DNA of 64,000 bases. Origin: Magnetococcales bacterium WMHbin3 (GTDB taxonomy: Bacteria; Pseudomonadota; Magnetococcia; Magnetococcales; Magnetaquicoccaceae). Numbering within the stretch: position 1 is the stretch's first letter; each line of letters starts with the position of its first letter. Positions 26,615 to 45,803 of the stretch are shown one piece after another. The stretch is taken from NCBI GenBank assembly GCA_002753185.1, contig PDZX01000003.1:62001-126000 (forward strand), given 5' to 3'. The notes under the pieces were generated by a model. That model was not told the origin of the DNA. It was given only the letters and a program-made list of their open reading frames with translations, and did not search any database. The translations under genes and the position numbers were made by a program.

Positions 26615-28159
26615 ATGATCAGTATTATTCTTTTTGTGGGACAAAATCAGGAAACGTGTGATGCGTTCCGCCAGGATTATCCATCTTCTGAATACGATAT
26701 TTATCATGCTTCCACCCCTGAAAAGGCGTTGGAAGTATTGAAAAGCCATTCGGTCGATATCATGGTGACCGATTTCGAACTGGCCCAGATGGACGGCCTG
26801 GAGTTGACCCGGCAGGCCCAGGCGTTGCAGAACACCTTGCAGGTGATCCTGCTGACCGGCCCCAGGGATCGGCCTTCCGTGATGCAGGTCATTGCCCATC
26901 ACATCGCGGTCGAACTGGAAAAGCCGGTGCATCGGGAAGAACTGCGCATCTACGTGGAGAGGTGCCGGGAGATCAAGCGCATCCGGGAAGAGTTGCGGCG
27001 CAAGGAGGAGTTGCTCAAGAGCGAAGTGGGTGTCCGCGAGCAGGCGGAATTCGAGGCCAATCGCGCGCTGGCGACGCGCATCGCCATCACCGCCCTGCTG
27101 GAAACCAGCCTGGAGCGTCTTTCGTTCGCCAAACAGGTCGAGGTGATCCTGGATGTCATCCTGAACATTCCCTGGTTCTTCGGGCAGCGCAAGGGGGCGT
27201 TGTTCCAACTGGACGAAACCGGGCCTCACCTTACCCTGGTCGGTCACAAGAATCTGGATGGCGAGGTCACGGGGGTCTGCGACCGGGTGGAAATCGGGCA
27301 CTGCCTGTGCGGCCAGGCGGCCCAGACACGCCAGATCGTCTTCGCCGACCGGGTCGATGGCGCGCACACGACCCGCTACGAGGGGATGCCACCCCATGGC
27401 CATTACTGCGTGCCCCTGGTCAACCAGGATGCGCTGCTGGGGGTGTTGTGCCTCTATCTTGCGGAGGGGCACCAGCCCGCGCCGGACGAAGAGGCGTTGC
27501 TGAGCACCCTGGGCGCCACCCTGGCCCGCATCCTGGAACATCGCAAGACCGAGGGCGAACTCAAGCAGGCCGAGGAACAACTGCGTTTCATGGCCTATCA
27601 CGACCCCCTGACCGGTCTGCACAACCGTCAGTTCTTCGATCAGACCTTCAACAAGCTGTTCATGGCCTTGCAGAATCCCTCGCGCCGGCACAACGAGGCT
27701 CCCTTTCAGGGGGCATGCCTGGCGCTTTTCGATATCGATCATTTCAAGAAGGTGAACGACACTTACGGCCATCTGATCGGGGACGAGGTGTTGGTGCTTT
27801 TTGCCCGCAAGATGACCGAGTGCTTCCGGGAAAGGGACGCGACGTTTCGTTTCGGGGGCGAGGAGTTCGTGGTCCTGCTGCACGATGTCACCCCGGAAAT
27901 CGCCGAGACGGTGCTGAACCGTTTTCGCCAGTCCATCGATTCCTATGCCTTTCCCCAGGTGGGCCAGGTCACGGTCAGCATCGGGGCGGTGCGGGTCGAG
28001 GCGGGAGAGTTGGCGGCTTCCTTGATCGAAAAGGCCGACAAGGCGCTCTATTTCGCCAAGAGCAATGGCAGGAACCAGGTCCATTTTCATCATGTCCTGG
28101 TTGCCGCCGGGCAGATCGAGGATGTGGAACGGGATCCCGGAGAGGTGGATTTGTGGTGA
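26615..28159 (+). CDS. REC-GAF-GGDEF response regulator (diguanylate cyclase)
   Basis: A 514-residue soluble protein. Residues 1-120 form a receiver domain with phospho-acceptor D53 (MVTDFE), then a coiled-coil linker, a GAF domain (about 150-320, including CLCGQAAQTRQIVF), and a GGDEF domain whose active-site loop reads GGEEF at residues 414-418 with DIDHFKKVND before it. All catalytic residues for c-di-GMP synthesis look intact. No RxxD inhibitory site is seen directly before the GGEEF. It sits in an operon with a histidine kinase and an HD-GYP regulator, which could be its partner and its antagonist. Confidence 0.9.
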   Translation: MISIILFVGQNQETCDAFRQDYPSSEYDIYHASTPEKALEVLKSHSVDIMVTDFELAQMDGLELTRQAQALQNTLQVILLTGPRDRPSVMQVIAHHIAVELEKPVHREELRIYVERCREIKRIREELRRKEELLKSEVGVREQAEFEANRALATRIAITALLETSLERLSFAKQVEVILDVILNIPWFFGQRKGALFQLDETGPHLTLVGHKNLDGEVTGVCDRVEIGHCLCGQAAQTRQIVFADRVDGAHTTRYEGMPPHGHYCVPLVNQDALLGVLCLYLAEGHQPAPDEEALLSTLGATLARILEHRKTEGELKQAEEQLRFMAYHDPLTGLHNRQFFDQTFNKLFMALQNPSRRHNEAPFQGACLALFDIDHFKKVNDTYGHLIGDEVLVLFARKMTECFRERDATFRFGGEEFVVLLHDVTPEIAETVLNRFRQSIDSYAFPQVGQVTVSIGAVRVEAGELAASLIEKADKALYFAKSNGRNQVHFHHVLVAAGQIEDVERDPGEVDLW

Positions 28160-37951: not shown

Positions 37952-38575
37952 CTGGAACAGGAACTGGCCGCCAGCGGTTACCGCGCCGTCTGTGGCGTGG
38001 ACGAGGCCGGTCGCGGCCCCTTGTGCGGGCCGGTGGTGGCCGGTGCCGTGATTCTGCCCCCTGGACCGCTGCCGCTCGCCCTGACCGGCCTGGACGACTC
38101 CAAACGGCTCTCCCGGCAACGGCGTGAACTCTTTGCCGAGGCCATCCGTCGCGAGGCCGTGGCGGTGGCTGTCGGCCTGGCCGAACCGGAAGAGATCGAT
38201 CGCCTCAATATCCGCCGCGCCGCCCTGCTCGCCATGTCCAGGGCGGTCGTGGCCTTGCACGCGCCTGCCGATTTCGTGCTGGTCGATGGCCGCGACCTGC
38301 CCGATAACCTCCCCATCCCCGCGCGCGCCGTCGTGCGGGGGGATCGGATCTCCATTTCCATCGCCGCCGCATCCATTATTGCAAAAACCCATCGGGACGG
38401 CATCATGACCCGTCTGGCCCTCCGCTTCCCCGGTTATGGCTGGGAAGAGAATGCCGGTTATCCAACGGCAAGACATCTCCAGGCCTTGCGTACCCTGGGG
38501 GTCACCGAGGTCCATCGGCGTTCGTTCGGGCCAGTGGCCGCCCTTTTGGCGGGCAAGGATTCCGGGTACGTTTGA
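37952..38575 (+). CDS. rnhB: Ribonuclease HII, probable CTG start
   Basis: About 207 residues that cleave the RNA strand of RNA-DNA hybrids. Catalytic residues are in CGVDEAGRGPLCGPV, the LDDSKRLS loop and AAASIIAKTHRD. Between the rplS stop and the first conserved motif the frame contains no ATG, GTG or TTG. A CTG at 37952 lies 5 bases after AGGGAG and gives LEQELAASGYRAVCGVDEAG, a normal RNase HII beginning. The only in-frame ATG upstream (37721) lies deep within rplS and would add 77 residues of shadow sequence. Confidence 0.9.
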   Translation: MEQELAASGYRAVCGVDEAGRGPLCGPVVAGAVILPPGPLPLALTGLDDSKRLSRQRRELFAEAIRREAVAVAVGLAEPEEIDRLNIRRAALLAMSRAVVALHAPADFVLVDGRDLPDNLPIPARAVVRGDRISISIAAASIIAKTHRDGIMTRLALRFPGYGWEENAGYPTARHLQALRTLGVTEVHRRSFGPVAALLAGKDSGYV

Positions 38576-38639: not shown

Positions 38640-39353
38640 GGGTTTGGGAAAACCAGGGGCAGGCACGAGGGGGGGAGCCTGCCCCTGGTGGAGACGACCC
38701 GAACCGGCATCGTCTCAACTTTGTTTATAATTTTAGTGTTCGACGCCCAGGGGGCGTCGAACAACCGGACGGCGACGGGACAAACCGGCGGCGCCTCGGA
38801 TTGAACGGAAAACCAGGGACCGACTCGAGGGGGGAGTCGGTCCCTGGCTGGAGACGATCCGAACCGGCATCGTCTCAACAAAGTGTTGTGATTTAAAAAT
38901 ATCGGACACTCATCACGACGACGGGACAAACCGGCGGCGCGACGGGTTTATTCTTGAAACCAGGGGCCGACCTGAGGGGGGGGGAGTCGGCCCCTGGTTG
39001 AGGCGACCCGAACTGGCATCGTCTCAAAGTCTGGCTATATATAAAGTGTCCGACGCCATGATTTGGCGTCGGACACCCGGACGGCGACGGGACAAACCGG
39101 CGCCGCCTCGGATTAACTAAGAGAAACCAGGGGCCGACCTGAGGGGGGGGGAGTCGGCCCCTGGTTTGGGACGAACCTTGCGGCACCGTCCCAAGCGAAA
39201 CCAAGGGCCGACTCGAGGGGGGGGATGTCGGACCCTTGGTGAAAGGGCGCACTTGAAAAAGAGACGCCCAATGCTTTTTGTTACCCATGCCTCCCACAGG
39301 GGGAGGGGGATCAAGGGCTGGGAATCGGGGAGGGGGTGTCCAGCCCTTGATCC
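38640..39353. repeat. Array of long hairpins with repeated architecture (REP/BIME-like)
   Basis: A non-coding stretch downstream of rnhB with about five related units. Each carries a long stem (type A) whose left arm reads ACCAGGGGCCGAC or a variant, around a purine loop with a run of 6-9 G. Arms: 38652-38664/38677-38689, 38813-38826/38834-38847, 38958-38971/38986-38999, 39124-39138/39153-39167, 39200-39212/39227-39240 (one bulge). Most are followed by a shorter stem B around GAGACGA...TCGTCTC (38691-38716, 38851-38876, 39000-39025; altered at 39166-39194). Stem C occurs at 38737-38748/38752-38763 and 39046-39058/39064-39076. A linker with GACGGGACAAACCGGCG occurs three times (near 38774, 38922, 39087). 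A last unrelated stem is at 39308-39321/39340-39353. Arms co-vary between copies, so structure is conserved. Confidence 0.85.
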
Positions 39354-39700
39354 GGGTTGTCCCGATATTGCCGGGCAACCCATCTTTCGTCCATTGCAAG
39401 AATCCTTTTGCAACCGAGACGTCCGTGTCTCGTGATAATTCTTTCAAATCCTTTGTATCTATATATATCAGGAACCGTGCCATGATGTGTTCAAAAAAAA
39501 ATTTCTATTTAATCATATAGTTGCATAAAAATGTCCGTTGAAGGGGTTGGGGTGGGTGGTGCAAAATTTTGAGCGCTTTTCGGGTGCAAAAAGATAATTG
39601 TAACAAAAAATATCAGAATTTTTTCTTTATTTTCATTCTGTTGTCAAAAAGATGGAGATTTTTTTTACAAAATGTAACATAGTGCAAAAATTTGTCCGGC
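39354..39700. other. AT-rich intergenic region without genes
   Basis: After the hairpin array the composition changes sharply to AT-rich, with homopolymer A and T runs and three GTGCAAAA boxes (near 39569, 39587, 39682). It lies downstream of both rnhB and the minus-strand sigma-54 regulator, so it is a convergent intergenic space. No gene or RNA was recognised. Confidence 0.5.
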
Positions 39701-41155
39701 TCACCTCGGCTGGCCAGGGCGCGTCCCCTGGGAGGTCAAGCCGCTTTTTTTGATCTGCTGCAGGCGGTAGTTGAGGGTCTGGCGGGAAAGCCCCAACAGG
39801 GTCGCGGCCAGGCTCTTGTTGCCCTGGGCGCGTTCCAAGGCCTCCTCGAGGAGAAAGATCTCGGCATCCCGCAGGGTGGGCAGGCGTCCGGCGATCCGCT
39901 TGAAGGGATTCTCTGCGGCGGAATCGATCTGGGGATTGTGCTCGTCGGCATTGGGAAAAACGCTGTCGCGGAACCGTTCCAGAGAGAGGACGCCGGATTG
40001 ATGGCGGGCGACGGCATCGAAGGTGATGGCGCGCAACTCGCGGACATTGCCAGGGAAATCATAGGCGTTCAGGAGATGGAACAGTTCCGGCGGCGGGATG
40101 GGCGCGGACTTGCCCATGGTACGGGCGGACTCCTCCAGGAACTGGGCGGTCAGGAGCGGGATGTCCTCCTTGCGCTCCCGCAAGGGGGGGATGCGCACCT
40201 GATGGGAAGAGAGGCGAAAATAGAGATCGGAACGAAAGGTCTTTTCCGCCATCATGAACTTGAGGTCGCGATTGGTGGCGCAGATGATGCGGGCATCGGT
40301 CTTGAGGTAGCCGTCGGCGCCGAGGGGATAGTACTTGCGTTCCTGCAAAAGGCGCAGCAGCTTGACCTGCGAGGACTCCTTGAGGTCGCCGATCTCGTCC
40401 AGGAAGAGTGATCCCCCTGCGGCGGCGGCGATCAGCCCCTCGCGATTCTCGTTGGCGCCGGTGAAGGCCCCCTTGCGATGGCCGAACAGGGTGTCGGAAA
40501 ACATGTTGTCGTCCAGGCCGGCGACGTTGAGGGCCACGAGGGGACCGTTGCGGTGGCTGACGAGATGGATGGCGTTGGCGAGCAGCTCCTTGCCCACGCC
40601 GGTCTCGCCGATGATCAGCACCGGCTCGGAGGAGGGGGCGATGGCCTCGACATACTGAAAGACCGCCCGCATCTTGCGGCTTTTGGTGATGATGGCGGCA
40701 AAGGCCTCGGCGTGCTGCAACTGGTCCTCCAGCAGATAGTGCTTCAGGGTGCCCACCTCGCGCTGCAGGGAGCGCACCTCCATGGCGCGGCGGACGCACG
40801 AAATGAAACGGCTGTTCTCCGCCGGCTTGATCAGATAGTCGAAGGCGCCGTCCTTCATGCACTGGACCGCGATATTGACCTCCTGCGTGGCGGTCATGAC
40901 GATGACGGGGATCTCCGGGAAGCGCTCGCGGATCTTGGGGAGGATCTCCGTGCCGGAAAGATGGGGCATGACCAGGTCCAACACCACCACCGCCGCGCCG
41001 TTCTCCTCCAGAAAGGGCATCAGCTTGCGGCCATCGGTCAGGGTGATCACCGGGGAGACGTCCGCCGTCTTGAGCAGAATCTTGGAGCTGAACAGCACGG
41101 TCTCCTCGTCGTCCACCAGGACAATGGGGGGATTTTTCTTGACGGGTGGGTTCAT
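39701..41155 (-). CDS. Sigma-54-dependent response regulator (NtrC family)
   Basis: A 484-residue regulator with a receiver domain (VLVDDEE; acceptor D60 in VVVLDLVMP), an AAA+ domain with Walker A GETGVGKE (183-190), the sigma-54 contact loop GAFTGA (229-234), LFLDEIGDL and NVREL, and a C-terminal Fis-type helix-turn-helix (NKSLAATLLGLSRQTLNYRLQQI). When phosphorylated it should activate sigma-54 promoters. The ATG at 41155 overlaps the kinase stop (ATGA), so kinase and regulator are cognate; the frame upstream of 41155 is antisense or out-of-frame to the kinase gene. Confidence 0.95.
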   Translation of the reverse strand: MNPPVKKNPPIVLVDDEETVLFSSKILLKTADVSPVITLTDGRKLMPFLEENGAAVVVLDLVMPHLSGTEILPKIRERFPEIPVIVMTATQEVNIAVQCMKDGAFDYLIKPAENSRFISCVRRAMEVRSLQREVGTLKHYLLEDQLQHAEAFAAIITKSRKMRAVFQYVEAIAPSSEPVLIIGETGVGKELLANAIHLVSHRNGPLVALNVAGLDDNMFSDTLFGHRKGAFTGANENREGLIAAAAGGSLFLDEIGDLKESSQVKLLRLLQERKYYPLGADGYLKTDARIICATNRDLKFMMAEKTFRSDLYFRLSSHQVRIPPLRERKEDIPLLTAQFLEESARTMGKSAPIPPPELFHLLNAYDFPGNVRELRAITFDAVARHQSGVLSLERFRDSVFPNADEHNPQIDSAAENPFKRIAGRLPTLRDAEIFLLEEALERAQGNKSLAATLLGLSRQTLNYRLQQIKKSGLTSQGTRPGQPR

Positions 41156-43932
41156 GGGGCGTCTCCTCGCGTGGGTTCGCCGGCGGCGGGCAGGCTGACG
41201 GTCACCGTGGTGCCCTGATCGGGTCCCGATTGGAACGACAGCTCGCCGGAGTGGTTGTCGATGATGGTCTTGGTGATGGACAGTCCCAGTCCCATGCCGC
41301 CGGTGGCGGTCCTGGTGGTGAAGAAGGGGTTGGTCAGTTTGTCCAGATGTTCCGGATCGATCCCGCACCCCTCGTCGCGCAGGACGACCTGCACGCGGGT
41401 GTTGTCCGCGTGGGGCGCGGTGGAGATGGTCACCCGGTTGGCGCGGCCGCGCAGGGATTGCAGGGCGTTCTGAATGAGGTTGATGAACGCCTGTTCCAGC
41501 TGCTGGGCATTGCCCCGCACCATCAGGGGCGAGGGGTGGGGCATCAAGTGGCAATGGTCCGTGGCCTGCCGCACCTGACTCTGGAGGATCAGAAGCGCGG
41601 ATTGGATCGGTTCCCGGATGTCGAACCGCTGGGTGGGTGGCTCCTTGTCCTGGCGGGCCATGTGTTTCAGGCCGCCGATGATGGTCTGGATCCGTTGCGA
41701 ACTCATGCGGATGCCGTCCAGCAACTGGGGGAGCACCTCCATGGCCTCGTCCATGGGCATGCCGCCCAGGCAGAAGGCGCCGGACCCCTCGTAGGCCCTT
41801 TGCAGAATCGGCAGGGCGTCCTCCCAGATGGCGGTCAGGATCGGAACATTGAACTGAATGGCATTGTTGGGATTGTTGATCTCGTGGGCCACGCTGGCCG
41901 ACAGCACCCCCAGGGAGGCCAGCCGGGCGTTGCGCAGGTTTTGTGCCTGCAAGGTCCGTTTTTCCGTGATGTCCTGACAGACGGCCAGCACCTCGGTCAC
42001 CTTGCCGTCCTGGAAGATCGGGGCCAGTCGTGCCTCCCACCAGGCCTTTTCTCCGTCCGTGAAGGGGTACTCCACGGCCTGCCCGGTTTTGAAGACGGTA
42101 TCCAGCCGTTCCCGCAGATGGGGGATCATCGCATCCGGGAGCAACTCCCTGGGGTGGTTCGGGCCTTGGCGGTTGCTGAAATGGACCGCGCCCTGCCGAT
42201 CCAGGGTCATCAGGCAGTCCGGGGAGTGGTGGAACAGGGTGCGCAGTTTCTCCTCGGAGAGCGCCATGGCCCGCTGGGCGCGGCGCCGCTCCTCGGCCTC
42301 GCGGAATTTGAGTATGCCGAAGGCCAGATTGTTGGCCAGGGTTTCCAGAAGCCGCAGCTCGTCCTGGTCGAAGGCATCGGTTTCGGCGCTGTAGATGTTG
42401 ATGGCCCCCAGGGGCAGGAGGTTGTCGTTGGGCAGGGGCAGGGCGATGGAGGAGGCGTAGCCGCGCCGGGTGGCCTCCTCGCGCCAGGGGGCAAAGTTGG
42501 CATCGGTTCGGATCCGGCGCGCGCAGGTCGGCTGCCGGGTGCGGAAGGCGGTGCCGGTGGGGCCGCGGCCTTTTTCGCCATCTTCCCAGGTGATTTCCAG
42601 TTGTTGCAGATAGCCGTCGTCGAACCCGTACTGCGCGACGGGCAGGATGCGTTTGCTGTCGTCCTGGGCCGGGTATCCCACCCAGACCATGCGGTATCCC
42701 CCCTCCTCGACGATCAGGCGGCAGATGCGTTGCAGCAATTCCTGTTCGGAGGTGGCCTTGATCATGGCCTCGTTGCCGTGGCTCAGGGTCAGAAGGATCC
42801 GGTTGACCCGGTTGATGGCCGTTTCGGTCTGCCTGCGGCTGGTGATGTCGCGGGCGAAGTTGCAGTGGATCTCCTGCCCGTCGATCTCCAGAAAGGTGAT
42901 GTGGATCTCGATGGGCAACAGCCGGCCATCCTTGGTGCAGACCTGGGTCTCCATGCGGCTGCGATGGCGTTGCTTGAGATCGTTCCAGTGGGCGCTCCAG
43001 GCCGTCGGGGTGAGTTCCGGGTTGATATCGGCGACGGTCATCCCCATCATCTCTGTCTTGGAGTACCCCACGGCCTCGCACATGGCCTGATTGACGTACA
43101 GAAAACGGCCTTCGGGGCCGATCCAGCAGACCATGTCCGCCGCCTGATCCACGGAGAATTGGGTCTGTTTCAGTTGCTTGGCGGTCTCTTGTTGGGCGTG
43201 CAGGGCGTTGGCGAACGACTCCATGGCCAGATTGATGAAGTGGGAGAGATGGGCGAGTTCATCCCTTTCGTGACCGGGCGGCAGGGTGAGGGGTTGCCTG
43301 GCCGGGGTCTCCGGGTCCAGCCTGGCGAGCTGTTGACCCAGCATCAGGATGGGGCGCGTCAGGAGGTGGTGAAAGACGATGGTCAGGATGGTGGCCAGCA
43401 GGAAGGCGGCGAACAGGGAAGAAAGCAGCGTGAAACGGGCGCGGCCCAGGAAGTCCCTGGCACTCAGGTAGGGATCCACGGTAATGGTGAGCCGGCCGAC
43501 GGTTCGACCCTCCAGGATCAGCGCGGTGGTGATCTCGTTCATGTCGGAGCGCAGCAGGGAGGCGATCCATTTGACGATCCCGGATTCCGAATGGTGGCGG
43601 TCTTTTTGTCCCAGCAAGGCCCCTGTCGCGCTATCCAGGTGGGCATGGTGGATGGACTTGCATTTGAACAGCCCGTCGAGGACCTTTTCGGCCATCAGCG
43701 GATCGTTCTCCGAAGTGGCGCGGCCGGCGGCGTCGCGGACGACTTCCAGCACCTGGGCGATATTGGCATGGATGCGTGACTGTTCGCGATGGAGGTCATT
43801 GAGCACCTCGCCCAGCCCGAGCAGCAATCCTACCGCCAGTCCCACCAGCACGGCGGCGCGTGCCTGGCGGTAGGAAAGCCGCTTGCGCAAAGGGATGGCG
43901 ATGCCGGGTGGCAGGGTCGATGGCAGGCTCAT
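41152..43932 (-). CDS. Multi-sensor membrane histidine kinase (HAMP-PAS-GAF-PAS-HisKA)
   Basis: A 926-residue kinase. A first helix (about 25-45) and a second (about 172-192) bracket a periplasmic region of about 125 residues. A HAMP domain, a PAS domain (MVCWIGPEGRFLYVNQAM), a GAF domain (about 385-560, SSIALPLPND), and a second PAS (CLMTLDRQGAVHFSN) precede HisKA with H683 in SVAHEINNP and a HATPase domain (NLIQNALQS, DEGCGI, NPFFTTRTATGGMGLGLS). It overlaps the sigma-54 regulator and is divergent from the haem-c diguanylate cyclase. Confidence 0.93.
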   Translation of the reverse strand: MSLPSTLPPGIAIPLRKRLSYRQARAAVLVGLAVGLLLGLGEVLNDLHREQSRIHANIAQVLEVVRDAAGRATSENDPLMAEKVLDGLFKCKSIHHAHLDSATGALLGQKDRHHSESGIVKWIASLLRSDMNEITTALILEGRTVGRLTITVDPYLSARDFLGRARFTLLSSLFAAFLLATILTIVFHHLLTRPILMLGQQLARLDPETPARQPLTLPPGHERDELAHLSHFINLAMESFANALHAQQETAKQLKQTQFSVDQAADMVCWIGPEGRFLYVNQAMCEAVGYSKTEMMGMTVADINPELTPTAWSAHWNDLKQRHRSRMETQVCTKDGRLLPIEIHITFLEIDGQEIHCNFARDITSRRQTETAINRVNRILLTLSHGNEAMIKATSEQELLQRICRLIVEEGGYRMVWVGYPAQDDSKRILPVAQYGFDDGYLQQLEITWEDGEKGRGPTGTAFRTRQPTCARRIRTDANFAPWREEATRRGYASSIALPLPNDNLLPLGAINIYSAETDAFDQDELRLLETLANNLAFGILKFREAEERRRAQRAMALSEEKLRTLFHHSPDCLMTLDRQGAVHFSNRQGPNHPRELLPDAMIPHLRERLDTVFKTGQAVEYPFTDGEKAWWEARLAPIFQDGKVTEVLAVCQDITEKRTLQAQNLRNARLASLGVLSASVAHEINNPNNAIQFNVPILTAIWEDALPILQRAYEGSGAFCLGGMPMDEAMEVLPQLLDGIRMSSQRIQTIIGGLKHMARQDKEPPTQRFDIREPIQSALLILQSQVRQATDHCHLMPHPSPLMVRGNAQQLEQAFINLIQNALQSLRGRANRVTISTAPHADNTRVQVVLRDEGCGIDPEHLDKLTNPFFTTRTATGGMGLGLSITKTIIDNHSGELSFQSGPDQGTTVTVSLPAAGEPTRGDAP

Positions 43933-44036: not shown

Positions 44037-45803
44037 ATGACCTCTCGGACCATCCTCGACAAGTGGCTTGCCCCGGTCGGCAGGCGTTTCGGCATCTTGA
44101 CGGATCGGCTGGGGGGGCGCGTCCTGCTCCATGGGGGGGTGACCCTGCTGATCGGCTGGCTGGTGCTCTCCCTGCTGGTCTCCCGGATCCACGAACACCT
44201 GGTGATCTCCCAGAACGAAAGGGCGATCCTGATGGTCACCCGCAGCGTCGCCGGGGCCATGAACACCATCATGCTGGCCGGCGACGCGGAGGTGGCGGAG
44301 GATTTCATCGCCAATCTCCAGGGCGTCCCGGAGATGGTCGATTTCCGCATCCTGCGCACCGATGGCAGCGAGGCCTTCCGTGACAACGAAACCATCGGGA
44401 TCGTCAATGGCCGGTTGGGCGGCCAGAGGTTCCCCCTGCGCAAGCAGGCGGTGCCCAGACAGGTGATGGAAAAGGACGCCGAGGCGCTGCGTCAGGCCCT
44501 CGCCCAGAACCGCGAGATCCCGGTCTATGGCCGGGATGCCGCCAGCGGCGGGAAACGCCTCACCTACCTCGCCCCCATTCCCACCCAGGATGCCTGCCGG
44601 GCCTGCCATGGTGACGGCGAGACGCACCGGGGCATCATCAAGCTGACCATGTCGCTGGCCAAGGCCGAGGAGGAGGTCGTCGCCGCGCGCTGGTGGATCT
44701 TCGGCATGGGCGCCCTGATCGGGGTGGTGGTGATGCTGCTGGTCTTCCTGGTGGTGCGGCGCTCGGCCGTGACCCCCCTGGAGCGCATGGCCGCCACCCT
44801 GGGGGATGTCATCGTGCCGGATCGTTTCCTGGAGGTGGAAGGGTGCCAGGAGTTCCGGCAGGTGGCCGCCGCCTTCAACCACATGACCAGCCAGTTGAAC
44901 GCGGCCTGGCACGGCCTCCGCCAGGAACGGGACAAGCTCACCACCATCCTGCTGGGGAGCCGGGAGGGGATCGTGGTGACCGACAGCACGGGAGCCGTGG
45001 CGCTGATCAATCCCGCTGCGGAACGGCTGCTGGGCAAGAGCGCGGATCGGATCCGCGAGGAAGGCTTCCTGACGCTCTTCGACGACCCCGACCACCTGGG
45101 CATGCTCCTCGAGGATCACCGGCACGAACTGCCGGGTCTGGTCTATTACAACGCGCGGATGTTGCAGCTCCATGCGGCTACGATTCGGGACGCGGGCGGA
45201 GAGCCGATCGGTTCGGCGGCGCTCATCCGGGATGTGACCCGCGAAAAGGCCCTGGAGGAGGAGTTGCGGGCGCTCTCCAACAGCGACGCCCTGACCGGTC
45301 TGTACAATCGCCGGCGTTTCGACACCGCGCTGCTGGACGAGTACGATCGCGCCACACGCTACGGACTGGTGCTGGGCCTGCTCATCCTGGACGTGGACCA
45401 TTTCAAGCGGTTCAACGACGAGCATGGGCACGATCAGGGGGATCGGGTCCTGCAGGCCATCGCCGGGGTCATGCGCGGCCATTTCCGTTCCGTGGACTAT
45501 CCTTGCCGATACGGCGGCGAGGAGTTCTGCGTCATCATGCCCAGCACCGGGGTGGCGGGGGTGCTGCGCTCCGCGGAACGGCTGCGCGACAGCGTGGCGA
45601 AGCTCTCCATCGACGGCCTGAACGTGACCGTGAGCATCGGCGTGGCCATCTTCCCGGATGAGGGACGCGCCGGATCGGACGCCCTGGTCAAGGCCGCCGA
45701 TCAGGCGCTGTACGCCGCCAAAAAGGGGGGACGCAACCGGGTATGCCACTTCATCCGGGAGGCGGTGGTTCTGCGGGAGTCGCAATTGGCAGCACCATCC
45801 TGA
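44037..45803 (+). CDS. Haem-c sensor diguanylate cyclase (DUF3365/Tll0287-like-HAMP-PAS-GGDEF)
   Basis: About 588 residues. A first membrane helix (about 31-50) leads into a periplasmic domain that ends with a c-type haem motif CRACH (C187, C190, H191) in TQDACRACHGDG followed by GIIKLTMSLA, as in Tll0287/DUF3365 sensors. A second helix (about 215-238), HAMP, PAS (GIVVTDSTGAVALINPAAE) and an intact GGDEF domain (LDVDHFKRFND, GGEEF) follow. It should couple redox or gas sensing in the periplasm to c-di-GMP synthesis. An in-frame ATG at 43995 is possible but overlaps the divergent promoter and has poor codon use. Its 3' end overlaps the CoA-transferase gene by 53 bases. Confidence 0.88.
   Translation: MTSRTILDKWLAPVGRRFGILTDRLGGRVLLHGGVTLLIGWLVLSLLVSRIHEHLVISQNERAILMVTRSVAGAMNTIMLAGDAEVAEDFIANLQGVPEMVDFRILRTDGSEAFRDNETIGIVNGRLGGQRFPLRKQAVPRQVMEKDAEALRQALAQNREIPVYGRDAASGGKRLTYLAPIPTQDACRACHGDGETHRGIIKLTMSLAKAEEEVVAARWWIFGMGALIGVVVMLLVFLVVRRSAVTPLERMAATLGDVIVPDRFLEVEGCQEFRQVAAAFNHMTSQLNAAWHGLRQERDKLTTILLGSREGIVVTDSTGAVALINPAAERLLGKSADRIREEGFLTLFDDPDHLGMLLEDHRHELPGLVYYNARMLQLHAATIRDAGGEPIGSAALIRDVTREKALEEELRALSNSDALTGLYNRRRFDTALLDEYDRATRYGLVLGLLILDVDHFKRFNDEHGHDQGDRVLQAIAGVMRGHFRSVDYPCRYGGEEFCVIMPSTGVAGVLRSAERLRDSVAKLSIDGLNVTVSIGVAIFPDEGRAGSDALVKAADQALYAAKKGGRNRVCHFIREAVVLRESQLAAPS

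Follow-up and report, generated by a model that had tools for sequence, protein, structure and literature searches.

The window, a 64,000-nucleotide stretch of the genome of Magnetococcales bacterium WMHbin3, contains an intergenic spacer between rnhB (plus strand, ending at 38575) and the gene of a sigma-54 response regulator (minus strand, 39701-41155) which houses an array of hairpins. The question raised by this locus is whether the array is a mobile repeat, a terminator or a structured RNA, and, if it is an RNA, from which strand it would be read and on what it could act.

Architecture of the array

Written on the plus strand, the spacer contains six long hairpins that carry G-run loops, along with five companion hairpins, a third stem at two places and a linker in three copies. 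The long hairpins have stems of 13-15 bp and loops of 6-9 G, with the exception of the sixth (39310-39351) which has a mixed loop. The initial annotation had counted about five units, which is correct and becomes six if this final hairpin is included. It also described the long stems with G-run loops, which recur at the five places listed below as C-loop hairpins 6 to 2, a second stem GAGACGA/TCGTCTC, which or a GGGACG/GGGCG counterpart of which stands beside each of the first five long stems, an occasional third stem around CGACGCC, found twice, and the linker, found three times. Read on the minus strand, a unit consists of a companion hairpin, 2-3 bases, a C-loop hairpin and a U-rich tail. 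The pattern extends beyond 39353 to 39482, where the minus strand also has a 5' hairpin and a promoter, both conserved. The features are as follows.

38653-38688, minus strand: C-loop hairpin 6 (promoter-distal), then TTTTCC on the minus strand; candidate 3' end
38691-38716, minus strand: companion hairpin GAGACGATGCC...GGGTCGTCTC
38737-38763, minus strand: third stem TGTTCGACGCCC/GGGCGTCGAACA
38774-38790, 38920-38936 and 39086-39102, no strand assigned: three copies of the linker element GACGGGACAAACCGGCG
38813-38847, minus strand: C-loop hairpin 5, 14 bp, then TTTTCC
38851-38876, minus strand: companion hairpin
38960-38997, minus strand: C-loop hairpin 4, loop CCCCCCCCCTCA; covariance-model match
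39000-39025, minus strand: companion hairpin
39046-39076, minus strand: third stem GTGTCCGACGCCA/TGGCGTCGGACAC
39127-39164, minus strand: C-loop hairpin 3; covariance-model match
39168-39192, minus strand: companion hairpin GGGACGGTGCC...TTCGTCCC
39201-39239, minus strand: C-loop hairpin 2; top covariance-model match in the genome (68 bits), itself one of the 7 sequences from which the model was built
39245-39269, minus strand: companion hairpin GGGCGTCTC...GCGCCC
39310-39351, minus strand: C-loop hairpin 1 (promoter-proximal), ATCAAGGG...CCCTTGAT form, present in 8 of 9 genomes of the genus
39416-39431, minus strand: conserved 5' hairpin GAGAC-ACGGAC-GTCTC with ANGGA(U/C)G in the loop
39467-39482, minus strand: sigma-54-type promoter TGGCACG-GTTC-CTGAT (TGGCACG-N4-ATGCT in the sister genus)
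39559-39575, no strand assigned: palindrome-like conserved element GTGCAAAATTTTGAGCG, candidate activator (enhancer) site
39651-39669, no strand assigned: conserved element reading TGTAAAAAAAATCTCCATC on the minus strand, candidate second activator site
39701-41155, minus strand: sigma-54 response regulator of 484 aa (Response_reg, Sigma54_activat, HTH_8), which is predicted to activate the array promoter
41152-43932, minus strand: sensor histidine kinase (PAS, GAF, PAS, HATPase), overlapping the start of the regulator gene

The structures are real in the sense that their stability lies far outside chance: the folding z-score of 38640-39353 is -17.7 on the plus strand and -17.1 on the minus strand, and none of 20 shuffles folds as well as the plus strand. 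Since the fold is alike in strength on both strands, folding alone does not decide between them. The array is under selection for structure, as had been proposed initially from compensatory changes in the arms. Among 30 hairpins from nine genomes of the genus, the seven outermost stem positions form standard pairs in 208 of 210 cells, and the same set holds 17 two-sided changes where shuffled sets have a mean of 5.3 and a maximum of 11. The sister genus (g2) has seven pairs with a two-sided change, covering 15 cells, and family f13 has six such pairs; 0 of 500 shuffles score as high in either group. Kinship between the sequences inflates shuffle tests of this kind, but slid controls give 0-1 pairs. 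The small alignment on which the covariance model is based (A6) shows almost no covariation by itself, and two alignments of mixed hairpin lengths that are out of register (A2 and A3) are excluded from the covariation analysis.

Open reading frames that run through the array were dismissed because the C-run length differs between copies (6-9), which shifts the frame. Elsewhere in the window, two separated stretches (27601-27639 and 45284-45322) share a repeat that codes for the motif DxLTGLxNR, which is typical of diguanylate cyclase (GGDEF) domains.

Strand, promoter and distribution

Four lines of evidence agree that the RNA is most likely the minus strand, namely the U-tracts, the non-Watson-Crick pairs, the promoter and a stand-alone gene in family f13 that ends in a terminator. 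Within the 12 nt that follow the hairpins, the mean number of T is 6.1 on the minus strand (with runs of up to T7) and 1.9 on the plus strand. Among the non-Watson-Crick stem pairs, read on the minus strand, G-U exceeds A-C by 10 to 2 in the own genus when the count is limited to the stem (p=0.019), by 40 to 3 in the sister genus and by 88 to 44 when 65 distinct hairpins are taken together (p=8e-5). When the count is not confined to the stem, the own genus gives 12 to 20, or 21 to 23 in a broader count that is likewise unconfined, because the facing C and A that close the loops were then included; as the own-genus counts depend on this limit, the weight of the comparison rests on the sister genus. 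The minus-strand loops are C-runs which read CCUCCCCCCCCUCAA in the own genus, CCCCCCCCUCUA in g2, CCUCUCCCCCCCCCCUCUU in family f8 and CCCCUCUCCCCCCCUCU or GUACCCCCCUUCAUC in f13, and the C-run is lost in two loops of one genome (G009) and one loop of another (G002). While the stems are substituted compensatorily and vary between families, the C-loops persist. The G-runs are most likely the C-run loops of a minus-strand RNA, which makes the G-quadruplex or the pairing of G-runs between units, both raised in the initial annotation, superfluous.

In each of the nine own-genus array regions no sigma-54-type match scores higher than this promoter, which always holds the same place on the minus strand; the chance rate of such a motif is about 0.1 per 300 nt. 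The promoter reads TGGCACGGTTCCTGAT at the window locus; in the sister genus it takes the textbook form TGGCACGNNNNATGCT, in which the -12 GC is that of the consensus, whereas the -12 box of the own genus is YTGAT instead of the usual TTGC. Sigma-54 itself is encoded in the genome. The conserved elements GTGCAAAATTTTGAGC and TGTAAAAAAAATCTCCACC lie upstream of the promoter at the usual distance of activator sites and may serve as such. The response regulator consists of a receiver, a sigma-54 activation and a Fis-type DNA-binding domain, and the position of the promoter directly downstream of its gene appears to be an arrangement of the crcZ type. Paralogous sigma-54 response regulators form a large family with several members per genome which are about 50-60% identical to the regulator of the array (for example G000:C97:8382-9782, C97:28058-29473, C150:16468-17895 and C3:49468-50847), and no further array was found beside them at 15 loci in three genomes (G000, G010, G001). 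A promoter-like box, TGGCACAATTGTTGATA, lies about 279 nt past the stop codon of a 61% identical regulator in family f9 (locus L109, genome G025), is not accompanied by C-loop hairpins and possibly belongs to a different RNA.

A DNA search places the array at a single locus of the 4.6-Mb genome, and every covariance-model match in the genome falls inside it. Diverged homologous arrays are present in 9 of the 11 genomes of the genus, the other two being 57% and 76% complete, and wherever contigs allow they lie between rnhB and the regulator; the named relatives are Magnetococcales bacteria. The order of regulator, promoter and array recurs in the sister genus (six of seven genomes), in family f8 (G041 and G037, with one hairpin and an imperfect promoter in G024) and in family f12 (G028), where the array again comes after the regulator and rnhB was not detected in the locus. 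The conserved 5' hairpin is kept in all nine own-genus array genomes, and its ANGGA motif recurs in G028. Family f13 has a stand-alone gene of about 170 nt with loops of the same kind, in which a sigma-54-type box precedes the first C-loop in six of seven copies and a T-run (T6 to T11) after the last hairpin makes a textbook terminator of it. Most of the genomes compared are metagenome-assembled. Because the order of regulator and array is kept, no rnhB was detected beside the array of G028 and the paralogues have no array, it is this regulator that is the array's partner. Its location downstream of rnhB, by which it had been described initially, is incidental, and rnhB is an accidental neighbour.

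Beyond the genus, a DNA search with the whole array returns mostly chance-level matches, since the stems diverge too fast for it and both the covariance model and the regulator as an anchor are needed. The model matches only Magnetococcales among 299 genomes drawn across the phylum. One built on the own genus gives no match in the sister genus, although the same system is present there with different stems, and negative results of the model therefore do not mean absence. No comparable tandem C-loop array was seen at the Geobacter, gammaproteobacterial and other loci with 50-59% similar regulators, and neither the window nor any of 11 related loci matched an Rfam 15 covariance model at gathering score. 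In the library searched, no paper on small RNAs of Magnetococcales turned up. The array RNA is most likely an undescribed RNA family of this order and, if the reading is true, apparently the first regulatory one to be described there, as far as could be found.

Proposed function and its alternatives

The sequence features suggest that the array is probably a small RNA (sRNA) gene, driven by sigma-54 and activated by the adjacent regulator, whose C-loops pair with G-run and Shine-Dalgarno leaders of mRNAs. On the minus strand it would begin near 39455 and end near 38640. It is proposed that the membrane sensor kinase and the response regulator, which are encoded immediately upstream, activate the promoter at 39467-39482 and that strong hairpins form one after another along the transcript, each exposing a single-stranded C-run loop. 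Since several hairpins are followed by U-tracts, the RNA may terminate or be cleaved between units, which would yield a ladder of shorter RNAs. As the conserved part of the hairpin, the C-loop should also be its working part, and its pairing with G-runs and G-rich Shine-Dalgarno leaders would block the binding of ribosomes. All parts of the presumed switch (kinase, regulator and promoter) are visible in the sequence. The evidence as a whole is drawn from sequence, which shows the strand, the structure, the constant place of the promoter, the link to the regulator and the persistence of the loops, and from which transcription, activation through this regulator, processing and the pairing with leaders are inferred.

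The computed pairing of C-loops with G-runs reaches -20 to -27 kcal/mol; an ordinary GGAGG leader pairs only weakly (-6 to -9 kcal/mol), so that strong pairing needs G-runs. Many genes seem to use such leaders: G8 followed by ATG within 3-9 nt occurs 26-39 times per genome versus 2-9 times for the reversed pattern in five genomes (G000, G001, G002, G005, G010), an excess of about 4- to 16-fold. The reversed control avoids the bias of gene starts that are called from Shine-Dalgarno sequences, although the frequencies of ATG and GTA differ. About half of these sites precede an open frame of at least 60 codons, several of which are probably spurious. No gene with a G-run leader was common to the two species compared, and hence no conserved target emerged. 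A possible target is the gene of a regulator resembling cyclic-nucleotide-binding (Crp-type) proteins, which is preceded by the G9 leader CAGGGGGGGGGAAACATAATG (L308, G000:C97:23301-23318, minus strand). On this evidence, pairing with mRNA leaders appears to be the best supported reading of the C-loops.

None of the 18 genomes of the own family (f1; G000-G017, both genera) has Hfq, and ProQ is missing from this family as well, whereas Hfq is present in 28 of the 30 other genomes of the order, the two exceptions being 65-69% complete. It follows from this apparent family-wide loss that the array RNA works without Hfq in f1 and cannot be an Hfq trap. The Hfq-less family carries long arrays and the Hfq-bearing relatives that were examined have mostly one or two C-loop hairpins, a correlation which rests on one loss event and is therefore a lead and not proof. 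A more far-reaching idea, which is possible but doubtful, is that the family that lost Hfq has a dedicated sRNA system reading G-run leaders throughout the genome, with the C-loop array amplified to 2-6 units under one sigma-54 two-component switch. If true, this would be anti-leader regulation without Hfq under a single such switch, and the system offers a test of how base-pairing sRNAs act where Hfq has been lost.

The main rival to the anti-leader reading is a minus-strand sRNA that acts as a sponge for an unnamed partner, its repeated C-loops trapping a protein, possibly a C-binding one, or a G-rich RNA in the manner of CsrB/RsmZ with CsrA or CrcZ with Hfq. Decoys typically repeat one loop motif on variable stems, as happens here 2-6 times, and the gene order matches that of cbrAB-crcZ (PMC8871633). 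CsrA is encoded in the genome and the 5' hairpin carries an ANGGA loop. This loop resembles the CsrA consensus; the repeated loops, however, are C-runs that hold no GGA and hence no CsrA sites. With Hfq and ProQ both missing from the family, and with no bacterial protein known to us that binds C-run loops, a sponge is rather unlikely.

The remaining explanations are all improbable. Convergence of rnhB and the response regulator gene on the array, together with the U-tracts and the resemblance of single minus-strand hairpins to terminators, would fit a bidirectional terminator cluster, but the plus strand has no U-tracts, arrays occur away from rnhB and as a stand-alone gene, and termination requires neither a conserved promoter-like sequence nor conserved C-loops. 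The same lack of a T-tract and of a constant rnhB neighbour argues against the multi-hairpin terminator of rnhB that was considered initially. Slightly less probable still is a plus-strand RNA formed by the 3' UTR of the rplS-rnhB operon, whose G-rich loops would be the active part, for example as a GGA sponge of the CsrA type or as a G-quadruplex; its fold is equally strong and its loops contain GGGGGGAG, but the U-tracts, the bias towards G-U pairs, the promoter and the constant orientation of the array towards the regulator all favour the minus strand. The imperfect tandem palindromes and their varying number between species recall a REP/BIME-like mobile or DNA-structural repeat that has no RNA function, as the initial annotation had also suggested. 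Both the genome-wide DNA search and the covariance model find one place, however, which is the same in the relatives of the genus, and the promoter and terminator features and the RNA-type covariation with G-U pairs make this the least probable explanation of all. Of the readings put forward at the outset, it is the tandem structured RNA that proved correct.

Relation to known regulatory RNAs

By loop motif and by Rfam the array sRNA is not a member of the SmelA075, LhrC, RepG or CrcZ families, and its best explanation is a mode of action like that of SmelA075, LhrC and RepG, combined with a gene arrangement of the crcZ type. Helicobacter pylori, the host of RepG, has no Hfq, and to our knowledge no sigma-54 promoter is known for this sRNA. 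RepG base-pairs through its C/U-rich terminator loop with homopolymeric G-repeats of an mRNA leader, and its gene adjoins that of an orphan response regulator, but unlike the array it has a single loop and one studied target operon (PMC8295292). LhrC1-5 of Listeria are multicopy sRNAs, strictly dependent on the two-component system LisRK, whose repeated C-rich (UCCC) motifs block the Shine-Dalgarno site; they differ from the array in being separate genes of a Gram-positive organism with non-homologous stems, in binding Hfq and in having no link to sigma-54 (PMC4132741).

The SmelA075/SmelA099 ('cuckoo'-type) RNAs of Rhizobiales and RSs0680a of Rhodobacter consist of several hairpins, each with an identical C-rich anti-Shine-Dalgarno loop, while stems and hairpin number vary; processed forms occur, and several ribosome-binding sites are proposed to be blocked (PMC3927594). 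The array likewise has several hairpins with variable stems and one conserved C-rich loop. Its loops, however, are C6-C10 runs with CU flanks (CCUCCCCCCCCUC, CCCCCCCUCU and similar) from which the CCUCCUCCC of the SmelA075 type is absent, and the available text of that source describes neither a sigma-54 promoter nor an adjacent response regulator (PMC3927594). The SmelA075 type belongs to another bacterial order and has no demonstrated sequence homology to the array, which, if the reading is true, would bring tandem anti-leader hairpins with a different loop to a further lineage.

Unlike CsrB/RsmZ with their many GGA loops, the array has C-run loops on its inferred transcribed strand and ANGGA only in the 5' hairpin. 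CrcZ traps Hfq/Crc through CA-rich motifs, whereas the motifs of the array are C-loops on hairpins in a family that has no Hfq. The closest parallel in gene order is the CbrAB-CrcZ system of Pseudomonas and Azotobacter, in which the genes of a kinase and a sigma-54 response regulator are followed, in conserved synteny, by a separate sigma-54-dependent sRNA gene, just as the array gene lies directly downstream of its kinase and sigma-54 response regulator (PMC8871633).
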